This document shows, piece after piece, positions 12,193-17,820 of a DNA stretch of 31,604 bases. A program made the position numbers and the translations under genes. How positions within the stretch are numbered: position 1 is the stretch's first letter; the number at the start of each line of letters is the position of its first letter. The notes under the pieces were generated by a model. That model was not told where the DNA came from. It saw only the letters and a program-made list of their open reading frames with translations, and did no database searches. The stretch is from a virus. The DNA lies in the IMG/VR virus record IMGVR_UViG_3300030012_003007, positions 1 through 31,604 of that record; one strand, given 5' to 3'.

Positions 12193-12810
12193 TTATACAT
12201 CAAATGTAGATACTCTATATATCTGCATTGAGCAATTTGTATCCTGTGCTGTATTTAAAGCACCCCCAGTTTCTTGTGTAATCCATATGTTAATTGTATC
12301 ACCAGCATCTAACACTAATGTTGTTGCTATGTAGTTGCTACTGCCGTTGTGGTGTATAGTTTGTTGTTCTTGTATTCCACCTGAAGCACTACCGTTTTTT
12401 CTAATTGATAAGCTGTATTGTTCTCCTGAGCTTAATCCACTTAACACTACTTTGCCCCTAATATGATAAGCACCATCGCCCCCACTTGGCACAGTAAAAG
12501 TGCCTGTTGCTGTGTTAAAAGCATTGTCAGTATCTTTTAGTTCTGTGTTAAAAACTATTTGATTTGGTGTGTTAGAACTTGGTATAGATTGGACAGCATT
12601 TCTATTTACAATAGCACATATTTGTTGTGTAGCGGCTACTGATGACTCAGTTGCTACTTCAAATTTATTTGTTGTGTCGTTGTATTTTAAAATTTTACCA
12701 TTTGCTGGCTCTACTGCTAAATCAAACATATCAATAATAGCATCAATCTTGGCTTGTGCCGCACTTATCAATCCACTTGCTGTTAATTTACTTGGCCAAT
12801 TATAACTCAT
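12193..12810 (-). CDS. C1q-like fibre protein, 205 residues
   Basis: Residues about 65-205 have the C1q/TNF-like jelly-roll pattern: IVFNTELKDTDNAFNTATG, then FTVPSGGDGAYHIRGKV, YSLSIRKNGS, TTLVLDAGDTINIWITQ and a final strand with QIYRVS. The N-terminal part holds the linker ANGKILKYNDTTNKFEV (about 36-52), also present in the 1131-residue fibre. C1q-like domains trimerise and bind surface ligands, so this is a good candidate for receptor binding near the tail tip. It is at the end of the tail operon, after the 258-residue protein. Confidence 0.7.
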   Translation of the reverse strand: MSYNWPSKLTASGLISAAQAKIDAIIDMFDLAVEPANGKILKYNDTTNKFEVATESSVAATQQICAIVNRNAVQSIPSSNTPNQIVFNTELKDTDNAFNTATGTFTVPSGGDGAYHIRGKVVLSGLSSGEQYSLSIRKNGSASGGIQEQQTIHHNGSSNYIATTLVLDAGDTINIWITQETGGALNTAQDTNCSMQIYRVSTFDV

Positions 12811-12821
12811 TATATTTCTCC

Positions 12822-13598
12822 TTATTGTTCTAACACTATGCCTTCACTGCTAACACTTAAATTACCAGCTATGCCCCTTGCTAAAATATCTACTGTAGCT
12901 GACTGTCCGCTTACATTAAAAGCATTGTTATCAACTACCCTAATTGTTTTGTTAGCTTTGCTAACTATTTCTCCAGCTAACTTTTTGTTTGTTTGCTGTT
13001 GTGGTGTTATGTTTATGTTAGTTAAAGCACCTATTTTGCTAAATGTTAGTGTGTGTGCTTCTCCGCTTACAGCTACATCATCTAATTGTTCTGTGACTGT
13101 GTCTGTTCTAACTTCCCAATTGAACTGTCCTAATTCAGGCACACCTCTTTGTGTTGTTGTGTTAAACAAATCAATAAATGCTGTAATTCTTAAATACCTA
13201 CCTGTAAATGCTCCGTATATGTCATCACAGTATCCTTCTTCGTAGTAGTTTAAAAATGTGTGTGTTATACAAGCACCGTTGTCTGTGTTGTCTGTTGTGT
13301 ATTTGCTTTGAAATGTAGCATCACTTAAATCACTGCTGTTGCCTGTTTCTATAACAGTTCTAATTGTGCCTTTAGCATTGTATCTTACTTCTACAAATCC
13401 AGTTATAGTTGATCCCAAGTCAATTATTTCTGTTTGGTATCTCAATGGTGTGCCGTTGGCACCTCCTATAGCTGGAGCACTATGAGTCACCCAACTTGTG
13501 TAGTTTTCCCAAGTTGGTGCTGTAGCCCAAGTTAAGTCTCCGTGGTGTGTTATAGTTCTTGCTATTTCGTCTAATGTTCCGTTATAACTTGCTGGCAT
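12822..13598 (-). CDS. Tail tip-associated protein, 258 residues, function unknown
   Basis: The gene overlaps the stop of the tail-tip gene (shared base), so it is translated with it. It is beta-rich: ITGFVEVRYNAKGTIRTVIE, GRYLRITAFIDLF, GALTNINITPQ and NAFNVSGQSATVDILARG are visible. There are no enzyme motifs. Proteins in this place after the tail-tip hub often form its distal extension or a fibre mount; that is inference. No signal peptide or membrane segment. Confidence 0.65.
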   Translation of the reverse strand: MPASYNGTLDEIARTITHHGDLTWATAPTWENYTSWVTHSAPAIGGANGTPLRYQTEIIDLGSTITGFVEVRYNAKGTIRTVIETGNSSDLSDATFQSKYTTDNTDNGACITHTFLNYYEEGYCDDIYGAFTGRYLRITAFIDLFNTTTQRGVPELGQFNWEVRTDTVTEQLDDVAVSGEAHTLTFSKIGALTNINITPQQQTNKKLAGEIVSKANKTIRVVDNNAFNVSGQSATVDILARGIAGNLSVSSEGIVLEQ

Positions 13599-16063
13599 TA
13601 TATACCTCCACTTGCTGTAGCATTAGGGTTGCTTGGCATTGTAATTTCGTGTTTTTCAATAAAGTTTTTATTTCCGTTGCTGTATTCACTTGTTATAGAT
13701 AGTGTAATTTTTTGTCCAAATGTAAAAGGGGCTCCGTTAAAAAATGTAAAGCCTGATCCAAATGGGTTAGGTAGATCTACTGGGTTAGTCATAACAGCAT
13801 TACCTGATTTTATAGTGTATATTATTTTAACAGCACGAGCATCCTCATTTTGATAATCGTTGTTGTTTATGCTTAATCCTGGACTATTTACACCGTTTAT
13901 GTTTGCTATAAATGTTTTTATAGTAAAGTATTTGCTTGTAGGGTCATCAGGGTCTTTGGGTGGCTTTTCCTTAGGCGGTTCTTGTCCTGGTGGTGTGTGT
14001 CTTTCTATAGCACTTAAATCTGTGTCTTCTTGTTGTGTCGTCACATCATATATGTCGTTTTGATGTTCTAATAAATTTAAATCAACTGTGCCATCATAGT
14101 TAAGTTTTTGTGCTGTCACTCTCCATATAAAGTTAGGGGCACTATAACTTGCTGATGTTGGTGCTTTAAACATAAAGCCTGTTATGTCGTTTGTTGTAGT
14201 AGCATCCTGTGTGTTGTAGCTGTGTGTTATAGTCACTAAATCTCCTGCTACTAATTGCTGTGCTTCACTTGTTGCTTGTAGTGTTAGCTGTAGTTGTTTT
14301 CTACTTCTTTTAACCATATACTCAGCATATTGTAGTGCTCTTTCTTTTTCAGTTATGCCAGGTGCTCCCATTGTGAGTGTTAGTGTTTCGTTGTTGTCTT
14401 CTGCCTTCATAGCATCACTGCCCGTAAATATAGCTGTATCGCTGTTAAAGTCTTTTTTGCTGTTGCTAAATGTCATATGACATTCATTATACTTGCTGTT
14501 TTTGTCAGGTGATGTAATTTGTATTTTACCTATAATTTTATCATCAGTAAGTTCTAACAAATTACCAGGTGTGCTTTCTGCTGTTTCTATTTTCAATTGA
14601 TACTTGCCGTTTGTGTATGGTAGAAAGCCTCTACAAGTTTGTAGTAGTTTTTTAGTGTTTTGAAATATGTTGTCGCTGGGCTTTAAAAATGTATTACAAG
14701 TTAAAAATTTAGCACTATTTAAATTACCACCAAAATCAACTGTTGTATCACAAGTTTGCTGTGCTGTTCTAAATGCTGTCCAATCAATTCTGTTGTCAGC
14801 TAATCCCTTTCCATATCTTGGGTTTCGTAAATAGTCCAATAAACAGTCTGCTGGGTTTTGGCTGTATGTAAAGCCACTTTCAAAATCATTGTTGTAAGTG
14901 TTGCTTGATGTAGTGCCGTGTCCGCTGTAATCACCACTTAATACTTTTTTACCTTCTACCTCAACTAATATTGTTGGTATGCCTCTCCAAGGGTTAAACA
15001 ATGTTTGGTCTCCAGTTTTTTCATTAAACTTGGGTTTTACCCAAGTAAATTTACAAGCCACATAAGCTACACCTCGTAGTCTATGACTTGGTGTCCAATC
15101 ATCGTGTTCATCTAATAAACTGCTAACAGTTTGGTCTTCAGTGCCTCTAAAAAATTGAAACTGTGCTTTTGCTGATCCATCTACAAAATATTTACTACCA
15201 CTTACTACACTAACAGTTGAATTGTTGTTAGTTGGGAAACTTGTTATGCTTTGCTTTTGGTCATCAATGTATATTGATTTAAATCCTTTTATCTCGCCTT
15301 CAGCTACTGCTAAACATACATATAGTTCGCTAAAGTCATCACCTCTTGTGCCTGCCCATACTCTTGTGCCGCCCACTAATCTCTGTCCGTATATAATTGG
15401 TAAGCCCTCAACATTAGATTGCTTATTGACTTTTATACCTTGTGATTCAGCATCATAAGCCGCACCGCCACCCATATCAGGTGTGTCAAAACTCATACCA
15501 AAAGCACCCATAAATCCTGTAAAGATATTTGTGACTGCTTTTACTATTTTTTTAAATATATTAACAATTGGCTTAAATATTTTACCTACACCGCCCTTGT
15601 TGTGTGCTAACATACCATTAGCATAGTAAGTATTGTCATTGTCCAAGCTAATGTTATAAACTCTTTCAAACCACTTTAAAGGGTTCCAAGTGCTTGTAAT
15701 TGACTTAACTTCTATTTGTCCTTTTTCAGTAATAATTTTATCACCTACCCATAAAGGCTTTATGTCTTTTAAGTCTATGTGATCGTGTAAGTAGTTGTCC
15801 CAACATTCAGGGTCATACCATTTACGATAGGGCTTTATAGCTTTCCAACCCTCTGTTGTCATAAACGGGTGTTCTGCTGTAGTAAAATATTCTCCGTTGT
15901 TTATGCTGTATTTTCTTCTAAAGTGTAAAAAAGGTTTATAAACTTTTGTGACTGTGTTTTTACCTTTAACACCTCTAACAACATCGCCCTTAACAATATC
16001 TTTTATAGCTTTGTTTTTACCGTTAGCTAATTTAATTTTTGTATCACCTGCAAAACAACACAT
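13598..16063 (-). CDS. Tail tip (J/hub-like) protein with an N-terminal intein-like Hint domain, 821 residues
   Basis: Residues about 3-155 are a Hint domain: MCCFAGDTKI at the start (Cys3 as the likely first intein residue), TTAEHP (61-66) as the TxxH motif, and VYNISLDNDNTYYANG followed by MLAHN (151-155) as the last motifs. The residue after Asn155 is Lys, not Cys, Ser or Thr. From about 156 the protein looks like a phage tail tip hub: a Gly/Lys-rich amphipathic start, then LPIIYGQRLVGGTRVWAGT, LYVCLAVAEGEIKGFKSIYI and RLRGVAYVACKFTW. The Hint part may cut itself off to mature the tip. It lies after the GNAT-like gene (TAATG overlap) and before the 258-residue gene. Confidence 0.85.
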   Translation of the reverse strand: MCCFAGDTKIKLANGKNKAIKDIVKGDVVRGVKGKNTVTKVYKPFLHFRRKYSINNGEYFTTAEHPFMTTEGWKAIKPYRKWYDPECWDNYLHDHIDLKDIKPLWVGDKIITEKGQIEVKSITSTWNPLKWFERVYNISLDNDNTYYANGMLAHNKGGVGKIFKPIVNIFKKIVKAVTNIFTGFMGAFGMSFDTPDMGGGAAYDAESQGIKVNKQSNVEGLPIIYGQRLVGGTRVWAGTRGDDFSELYVCLAVAEGEIKGFKSIYIDDQKQSITSFPTNNNSTVSVVSGSKYFVDGSAKAQFQFFRGTEDQTVSSLLDEHDDWTPSHRLRGVAYVACKFTWVKPKFNEKTGDQTLFNPWRGIPTILVEVEGKKVLSGDYSGHGTTSSNTYNNDFESGFTYSQNPADCLLDYLRNPRYGKGLADNRIDWTAFRTAQQTCDTTVDFGGNLNSAKFLTCNTFLKPSDNIFQNTKKLLQTCRGFLPYTNGKYQLKIETAESTPGNLLELTDDKIIGKIQITSPDKNSKYNECHMTFSNSKKDFNSDTAIFTGSDAMKAEDNNETLTLTMGAPGITEKERALQYAEYMVKRSRKQLQLTLQATSEAQQLVAGDLVTITHSYNTQDATTTNDITGFMFKAPTSASYSAPNFIWRVTAQKLNYDGTVDLNLLEHQNDIYDVTTQQEDTDLSAIERHTPPGQEPPKEKPPKDPDDPTSKYFTIKTFIANINGVNSPGLSINNNDYQNEDARAVKIIYTIKSGNAVMTNPVDLPNPFGSGFTFFNGAPFTFGQKITLSITSEYSNGNKNFIEKHEITMPSNPNATASGGI

Positions 16064-16548
16064 TATCTCTTACCTTCCATTTCAAAGTATAAAAATGGTT
16101 TTTTGTATGGACCAAATTCAGGGTATAAGTCTAACACTTTAAATCCTAACCATTCTAACCATTTGATATGTTGTGTGTGTGTTTGACTAACAAAGTTAAA
16201 CATCTTTGTATAAAGTTGTTGTTGCTGTTGTATCCATTTACGACTTTCTACTAAAAATATTCTATGTAGCTTTATATCTCTCTCTAAAAAGTCGCTCATC
16301 AATAGCCAAGGACAACCCTCATTGTATAGCTGTCCAGCTACACCAAACATACCTACTACTGTGTCATTGACTACAATAGTATTACTTTCATTACTATTTA
16401 ACCAACTGTAGTGTAAGCCATCATAGGGTGTCATATCAGTCATCCACTGTATTGTGTCTTTGTCTTCTCTTCTTAACCAAGGTGCTAAAAAGCTAATGTC
16501 CCATTCAACACTTGGTCTAAAATAAGCATTTACATTCATTCCCATCAT
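16063..16548 (-). CDS. GNAT-like phage protein, 161 residues
   Basis: The sequence has the form of the GNAT-like phage family (DUF2833, which includes T7 internal-protein relatives): NTIVVNDTVVGMFGV, then LHRIFLVESRKWIQ, LYTKMFNFVSQTHTQHIKWL and EWLGFKVLDLYPEFGPY. The HIKWLEWLGF part is the typical C-terminal helix-strand. It may acetylate a phage or host protein, or be a non-catalytic structural relative. It occupies the place where siphoviruses often carry a tail peptidase; no NlpC/P60 residues are seen here. Confidence 0.6.
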   Translation of the reverse strand: MMGMNVNAYFRPSVEWDISFLAPWLRREDKDTIQWMTDMTPYDGLHYSWLNSNESNTIVVNDTVVGMFGVAGQLYNEGCPWLLMSDFLERDIKLHRIFLVESRKWIQQQQQLYTKMFNFVSQTHTQHIKWLEWLGFKVLDLYPEFGPYKKPFLYFEMEGKR

Positions 16549-16549
16549 A

Positions 16550-17212
16550 CTAACTGTGCGGTCCCCATTTTATATCAGCAATCATACTTGAAGCATATTC
16601 AAAACCTTTGTCCCCTGTAAATTTAGGTTGTGTGCCTGTGCCATATCTTGTAGTATTTTTTTGTGTTGTTGTGTTTGTGACTCTACCATTTTTTTGTTCA
16701 AAGTTAGCCCAGTGTGTGGCTACACTTAAAGTTATTGTTGAGTTTTCAGGACCTTCTGTTATGCTAAAGTTTTTTATATTACCATCAAATAATAAAAATG
16801 TTTGTGTGTAGTCAGTTGTGCTATCTACACCAAAGCTTCTATGTATAACTACCCTTTTATTAACAATTGGATAGTTCAACACATCAGTTATGATGCCTTC
16901 GCTACTGTTATCTACACCACTTAAACTAATTTGTATTGTGTTAATTCTTAATTCTGTTGTTTCACTTACTGGACTAAAACTTAATAAATTACCTGATGCT
17001 TTATACAGTTTTGTTGCTCCACCCGTTGATGGTGCTGTTGTGCTGTTCCAACTTATGTCGTAAAAATTGTCTGTTAGGTATAGGTCGTCTAAATTGCTGT
17101 CGTCTAAATGTAGCTCACATAGATGAAAGCATTTTACAGCATCAAGCTCTAACTTACCTGTGCCATCACCTTCGTATATAGTATTTGTGCCATCAACGAC
17201 GACTCTACCCAT
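16550..17212 (-). CDS. Minor tail protein, gpL/DUF2163-like, 220 residues
   Basis: The pattern KRVVIHRSFGVDS, FLLFDGNIKNFSITEG, STITLSVATHWANFEQKNGR and a C-terminal DKGFEYASSMIADIKWG fits the lambda gpL/DUF2163 group of distal tail proteins. The paired cysteines of iron-sulphur members of that group are not obvious: only two Cys near residues 28-32 (KCFHLCEL) are seen. It lies between the distal tail gene (shared base at 17212) and the GNAT-like gene, in the correct tail order. Confidence 0.6.
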   Translation of the reverse strand: MGRVVVDGTNTIYEGDGTGKLELDAVKCFHLCELHLDDSNLDDLYLTDNFYDISWNSTTAPSTGGATKLYKASGNLLSFSPVSETTELRINTIQISLSGVDNSSEGIITDVLNYPIVNKRVVIHRSFGVDSTTDYTQTFLLFDGNIKNFSITEGPENSTITLSVATHWANFEQKNGRVTNTTTQKNTTRYGTGTQPKFTGDKGFEYASSMIADIKWGPHS

Positions 17213-17820
17213 TATACTGCCTCCACTATATCAAACTCTAAAGTTCCATATCCTGTTTCATCTACATTGTAGCTCACTGTGTCGCCAACTAATCTAACTG
17301 TCATTTCAAAGTTGCTACCAGCTAAAACACTATTGGTGTCTGCTACTGCTTTTACTAATCCAGGCTCAAAGTTAATTGTGTTATCACTGCCTTGATCCAC
17401 TGTAATCATATATGCTTTAGTATGTCCGCTGTTGTTGAACTTTATCATATCACCAGCTGTAAATTTATTAACATTGTCCAGCTCTATGCTTGTGCTACCC
17501 ACTGCCTTTTGTGCTGTTGTGCTACTTGATGCTATACCTTCGCTTGTGACTGCTGTAATGCCTGTCTCTGTTGTATTAACAGGTGCTATTGTAAATGTGT
17601 TAAAGCTACCCTTTTGCTTTACTAAAAAGCCATACACTTTTCGTAGTGCTGTTCTTGACATACTGTTCATTCTAACTTTAGCACTCCAAAACTGTCCGCC
17701 AAAACTTCTAATTTGTTGTCTTCCGCTTATGCTTTGTGTTGCTACTGTTGGTTGATTAGATATAAACTCCATACTTTTTATATTAACACCACTTGGTAAT
17801 ATATTGTTAAAATCTGCCAT
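17212..17820 (-). CDS. Distal tail-like protein, 202 residues
   Basis: The N-terminal half has SISGRQQIRSFGGQFWSAKV and MSRTALRKVYGFLVKQKGSF, followed by TFTIAPV; this is a common pattern of small distal tail proteins downstream of the tape measure. The rest is beta-rich with NKFTAGDMIKFNNSGHTKAY, which resembles a small beta-barrel insert. It starts and ends with base-sharing overlaps to its neighbours. Role: forms the ring that joins tail tube and tip (inferred from order and pattern). Confidence 0.6.
   Translation of the reverse strand: MADFNNILPSGVNIKSMEFISNQPTVATQSISGRQQIRSFGGQFWSAKVRMNSMSRTALRKVYGFLVKQKGSFNTFTIAPVNTTETGITAVTSEGIASSSTTAQKAVGSTSIELDNVNKFTAGDMIKFNNSGHTKAYMITVDQGSDNTINFEPGLVKAVADTNSVLAGSNFEMTVRLVGDTVSYNVDETGYGTLEFDIVEAV

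Follow-up and report, generated by a model that had tools for sequence, protein, structure and literature searches.

In the window, that is, the whole stretch of 31,604 nucleotides analysed here (IMG/VR record IMGVR_UViG_3300030012_003007), a tail-hub gene of a marine virus of bacteria encodes a protein that begins with a complete predicted Hint domain, best matched by bacterial intein-like (BIL) domains. We consider it probable that this type A BIL-like Hint (residues 1-155) is a self-removing N-terminal prodomain of the hub, exchanged as a cassette with the adjoining gp13-like gene. BIL chemistry, with a cut predicted from sequence, would here serve in a new role and at a new place, the N-terminus of the tail-hub plug. 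The features concerned are the following:

13598-16063, minus strand: hub ORF, 821 amino acids, starting MCCFAGDT
13598..15367, minus strand: remaining hub portion, lambda J / T5 pb3 type, stop codon included, with phrog_31, Phage-tail_3 and pb3 matches
15368..15412, minus strand: residues 218-232, VEGLPIIYGQRLVGG, matching the C-terminal end of gpI (PVPLxYGxRRVGG)
15464..15598, minus strand: predicted freed N-terminus, residues 156-200, KGGVGKIFKPIVNIFKK, lysine-rich/hydrophobic and plug-like, net charge +6 over 156-192, with an FG[LMV] motif
15596..15601, minus strand: predicted cut site Asn155/Lys156
15599..16063, minus strand: Hint (BIL-like) domain, residues 1-155, with Met-Cys, block A C3FAGDT, block B T62AEH65 and block G H154N155
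16063..16548, minus strand: gp13-like gene (T7 gp13), 161 amino acids, phrog_308 and weak PF11090 matches, overlapping the hub start by 1 base
16550..17212, minus strand: tail protein at the gpL position, phrog_2048
17212..17820, minus strand: distal tail protein, phrog_1302

The 31.6-kb record has 36% G+C and carries terminase, portal and capsid genes, and its tail genes follow the standard order of tape measure, distal tail protein, gpL-position protein, 161-aa gp13-like gene and hub. Downstream of the hub (12193-12810) lies a gene for a protein with a C1q-like domain (PF00386, 3.4e-5, above the cut-off), likely a fibre tip. The initial annotation had described a hub-like tail tip at 13598-16063, giving no strand. 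This assignment is borne out on the minus strand by matches of the hub body to phrog_31 (lambda J, 1e-38) and to T5 pb3 (1.5e-11) and by a Phage-tail_3 match of the ORF that exceeds the family cut-off, and hub-domain similarity places the protein in the lambda J / T5 pb3 group. An AAGG 5' of the start is the likely ribosome site. The in-frame codons directly 5' of the ORF are TAA GAG ATA, so that no usual start codon could extend the N-terminus and the N-flank of the Hint is Met-Cys alone, as had been claimed.

Blocks A, B and G of the Hint are intact, and each motif of the full set reported by the initial annotation was recovered (C3 in MCCFAGDT, T62-A-E-H65, H154-N155), the +1 residue being Lys156, followed by GGVGK. 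The domain matches Pfam Vint (2.2e-7) and NCBIfam intein_Cterm, both above cut-off, and the top match of the Hint-family HMM against the PDB is CthBIL4 (2lwy, 3e-24). AlphaFold2 modelled the Hint with a pLDDT of 89.9 and a pTM of 0.84 from 52 Hint rows (pLDDT 57 with 8 rows). Structure comparison of this model with VIA-align ranked Tetrahymena BIL2 first (6y75, Z 19.2), followed by the gp41-1 intein (16.3) and CthBIL4 2lwy (15.8); residue 3 of the model falls on chain residue 1, and Asn155 on the last residue of both the gp41-1 intein and 2lwy. The predicted fold, the block A Cys, the block B TxxH and the block G HN thus place the domain in the Hint superfamily. Within it, the C-terminal His-Asn without a +1 Cys/Ser/Thr, present as HN-K in all relatives covered there, agrees with type A BILs, as do profile and structure, to which known BILs are nearest by a small margin over inteins (gp41-1 being close). 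A class 1 intein would have a +1 Cys/Ser/Thr in its C-extein and the N-extein of an interrupted host protein; here these are replaced by Lys156 and by Met-Cys. The hub Hint has the common Hint fold, Cys1, TxxH, terminal His-Asn and lack of +1 Cys/Ser/Thr of CthBIL4 (2lwy) and Tetrahymena BUBL1 BIL2 (6y75), but known BILs lie in variable regions of bacterial proteins, whereas this one caps a phage tail hub, with a two-residue flank and +1 Lys-Gly-Gly. The fold is likewise that of phage inteins (terminase, helicase, RNR), which, unlike the hub Hint, are inserted in conserved enzymes between true exteins, in most cases with a nucleophile at +1 (phiCbK TerL is an example). To our knowledge, BIL domains have so far had no clear biological job.

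The same layout was found in 14 further IMG/VR contigs (the MCCFAGDT family), and no key residue is lost in the parts covered: Cys2, C3, T62 and H65 are invariant, H154 and N155 are present in every member covered there, and HN-KGG occurs in all relatives whose Hint end is covered. Two further Hint subtypes occupy the same hub position, MGG(G)S / CFIKDT and MCC(C)/MCIC/MGKLS, and C3, H65, H154 and N155 are kept across subtypes as well; our claims on Hint conservation refer to this family and to the subtypes found through hub similarity. Hint identity is 67-73% between lineages whose hubs are only about 39% identical, and Hint dN/dS is 0.04-0.14 where silent sites, mostly saturated, permit an estimate. 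Low dN/dS and saturated silent sites indicate that the Hint is kept by selection and did not arrive recently, and the saturation rules out recent homing. Judged by these alignments, the Hint is old, strongly conserved and under strong purifying selection. Among 149 distinct hub ORFs (the best matches listed, which give no frequency in nature), the Hint is present in 13 and absent from 136, and none carries a decayed copy. The cap is thus not essential for this hub type. Comparison of relatives with and without the domain, proposed in the initial annotation, gave intact Hint copies on the one side and Hint-less hubs beginning just after HN on the other; in Pelagibacter phages HTVC026P, HTVC111P, HTVC202P and HTVC112P and in the lake phage DSL-LC06 the start Met takes the post-HN position. 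Together with the absence of an endonuclease from the Hint, the two-residue flank, the +1 Lys and the purifying selection, these observations support the earlier view of a BIL-like domain, fixed at the N-terminus and probably self-removing, rather than a selfish intein.

Other N-termini occur at this place. In hubs L137, L138, L149, L189 and L073 the (K)GGGG follows a 30-aa leader, MKIYxKIVxDKDxNxIEEDSYEYxGPxxxC; this leader ends EC/KGGGG or HC/GGG at the hub junction and is perhaps another removable leader. A 45-aa leader, APxGEFxxYINxxEExLLKKHGGAG, is found in L058, L059, L061, L064, L068, L074, L101 and L122; these hubs mostly lack an acyltransferase gene and directly follow a gene of 188-219 aa at the gpL position.

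No relative of the hub Hint was found on hubs among 50,697 phage records searched, which sets this hub apart from T5 pb3 and lambda gpJ, with which it has the hub body in common, and a scan of two Hint subtypes against 84,980 bacterial and archaeal genomes retrieved no relative. Scanning for VHNKGGG gave many more Hints among the matches listed. Of the 59 non-redundant Hints compared, from all searches, 40, nearly all with an HN-KGG end, belong to J/hub tail-tip proteins; in contigs chosen by VHNKGGG this end is uninformative on conservation. Phages with a Hint in a J-type tip also have separate gpI genes, and in four marine ones (L217, L222, L242, L252) two tandem gpI-like genes precede the Hint-bearing J gene. 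Tandem Hints (up to three, in L279), each ending HN-K or similar, occur in virion-like proteins of L216, L219, L220, L279, L284 and L311. Proteins resembling tail fibres (L263, L283, L300, L311, L319) carry KGG(G) after the Hint and end in a domain of the VICTALYxxG / VICTELN type, which cleavage would free. The Pseudomonas phages PseuP_222, R656 and D14H, retrieved by tblastn with a Hint-J query, were rejected as carriers: their J genes are Hint-less and the extra match lies in other frames. Full-text literature searches brought up no publication describing a tail-tip Hint, although databases do use the name 'Hint domain containing protein' for proteins of uncultured phages.

This distribution bears on the best-surviving alternative, which we regard as unlikely: a mini-intein or BIL that is a selfish or neutral passenger of glycine-rich sites in virion proteins, has no role for the phage and is kept only because a failed exit would harm the hub. 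It would account for the same kind of Hint in other, mostly virion-like, proteins (19 of the 59 non-redundant cases among the matches listed), some in tandem, and for the patchy occurrence on hubs, the MCC-Hints of the MCCFAGDT family falling in three places on the hub tree and a single clade of MCC-Hint hubs being rejected (p-AU 1.4e-4). It also fits the J-type tips, where an N-terminal G[AS]KGG stretch harbours the Hint and is preserved on either side of it (the stretch before it, KGGG after it), Hint-less J proteins having the plain stretch. Yet a passenger would have to do without an endonuclease and without recent homing, the copies on hubs have hardly any N-extein, one site is shared by several distinct subtypes, and other short leaders replace the Hint there.

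Type A BILs are described as ending in HN, having no +1 nucleophile and mostly cleaving (PMC4031507, PMC7664689, PMC7765530). With blocks A, B and G intact and Lys at +1, the same chemistry is expected here, namely C-cleavage at Asn155 and little splicing, and by this predicted reaction the cap probably removes itself from the hub. The N-flank of hub-type Hints is 2-5 residues long in every subtype (MC, MCC, MCIC, MGGS, MGGGS, MGKLS), so that C-cleavage is the cut that alters the hub. In many Hints a block F His assists the cyclisation of Asn; throughout the MCCFAGDT family its place is taken by Asn144, and the predicted cleavage may therefore be slow or need a partner. The initial annotation was correct on the Lys after Asn155, but its conclusion that normal splicing is unlikely needs qualification, since some weak ligation by type A BILs can occur even when the +1 nucleophile is missing (PMC4031507), which makes a C-KGG product possible. 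On this basis Cys2, after removal of Met, could be joined to Lys156, the net effect being a reactive N-terminal Cys on the hub. Although Cys2 is invariant in the MCCFAGDT family and the Hint-less L137, L138 and L149 have ..TEC-KGGGG at the Hint place, cleavage products dominate for BILs (PMC4031507, PMC7664689) and the subtypes MGGGS and MGKLS would leave Ser instead of Cys; we thus hold ligation to be improbable as the main outcome. The computed masses are 91.6-kDa for the full-length hub, 73,495 Da for the hub starting at K156 and 73,598 Da for the C-K156 product.

The nature of the segment that self-cleavage would free comes from comparison with lambda and T5. In lambda, gpL, gpI and gpJ together are the counterpart of T5 pb3, gpI being the plug (PMC10721106). 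Lambda gpI and the T5 plug close the tail tube and both are proposed to touch the membrane (PMC10721106, PMC10038345); for the T5 plug tip, LFGL beside lysines, entry into the outer membrane has been proposed (PMC10038345). Hub residues 156-232 align with the C-terminal part of lambda-type gpI (hhalign with 51 gpI, 1.8e-5, probability 78%, 58 columns), a modest match that includes the plug segment and the YGxRxVGG end; with a thin set of five gpI the values were E 2e-4, 27 columns and probability 46%. The protein therefore looks like a fusion of the gpI C-terminal part to gpJ, and gpI-gpJ fusions have been reported from prophages (Iyer et al. 2006, PMC1779556). The same authors predicted that the JAB domain of gpK releases the ubiquitin-like domain of gpI at its last glycine (Iyer et al. 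2006, PMC1779556). Since the residues to be freed match the gpI C-terminal part, the Hint stands at the place of the ubiquitin-like domain, of which it would be the positional analogue, as far as a modest score allows. Both systems have an N-terminal domain, a glycine-rich linker, a plug segment and a YGxRxVGG end, but lambda gpI has the ubiquitin-like domain and a separate gpK peptidase, whereas here the Hint takes that position, the protein continues into J, and searches for ubiquitin-like PF06805, JAB PF14464 and NlpC PF00877 found none in this possibly incomplete 31.6-kb record. That the Hint no longer cuts and remains part of the virion hub as a structural or chaperone domain is very doubtful, for although the block F His is missing, C3, H65, H154 and N155 are kept and an 18-kDa domain directly before the lumen plug is hard to place.

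The gene upstream of the hub provides the second half of the proposed cassette. Its phrog_308 match is 1.3e-30 in this record and, for the DSL-LC06-like hub lineage, between 7e-25 and 7e-26. A gp13-like gene lies directly upstream in 9/9 MCC-type Hint hubs with that gene covered vs 0/114 other hubs, where a GNAT or HlyC acyltransferase takes this place or such a gene is missing (Fisher p 8e-14, the sequences being related and representing about four hub backgrounds). Pairwise identities of the Hint correlate with those of the gp13-like gene at r=0.92 and with those of the hub at 0.63-0.69. The L259 hub is about 80% identical to those of L257 and L261, yet has a different Hint (MGKLS) and a GNAT gene, which indicates that Hint and neighbour gene were swapped together. 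These patterns suggest that the MCC-type Hint and the gp13-like gene form a swappable two-part cassette across different hubs. As the two adjoin in the DNA, linkage alone could explain their joint exchange; a functional pair, the more interesting reading, may be involved. The position concerned, that of lambda K before the hub (16063-16548 here; also L001, L004, L005), nearly always holds an acyltransferase or gp13-like gene, for instance an HlyC-type RTX toxin acyltransferase (PF02794) in HTVC026P and HTVC112P and a GNAT in DSL-LC06. Its product may modify the lysine-rich plug.

We thus propose the following course for a self-removing cap. After folding, Asn155 would cyclise and the bond to Lys156 would break, leaving a hub that starts KGGVGKIFKP..., a positively charged and probably membrane-active plug segment as in lambda gpI and T5 pb3. 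Until the hub is folded or assembled, we infer, the cap would cover the plug segment or hold it soluble and would stop the hub from closing the tail tube. Between phages, the Hint and the adjoining gp13-like gene would be exchanged as one cassette. More tentatively, the plugs of many marine siphophages could be proproteins with exchangeable caps (in the lambda type a ubiquitin-like domain cut by JAB, in this hub a Hint that cuts itself, in others short leaders), the MCC Hint being paired in one cassette with a specific gp13-like partner, possibly of acyltransferase fold, that modifies or escorts the freed plug.

A BIL domain thus stands at a fixed and meaningful site, the N-terminus of the hub plug, in numerous marine phages, and relatives that cleanly lack the Hint serve as controls. 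The gp13-like partner offers a way into a family of phage proteins whose function is unknown. A self-removing cap suggests a new way of finishing tail-tip assembly. If the Hint cuts, it would provide a maturation step for the tail tip that needs no enzyme and would suggest how the producing cell handles a membrane-active segment, and the old prediction that gpI is processed by gpK would become testable by analogy.
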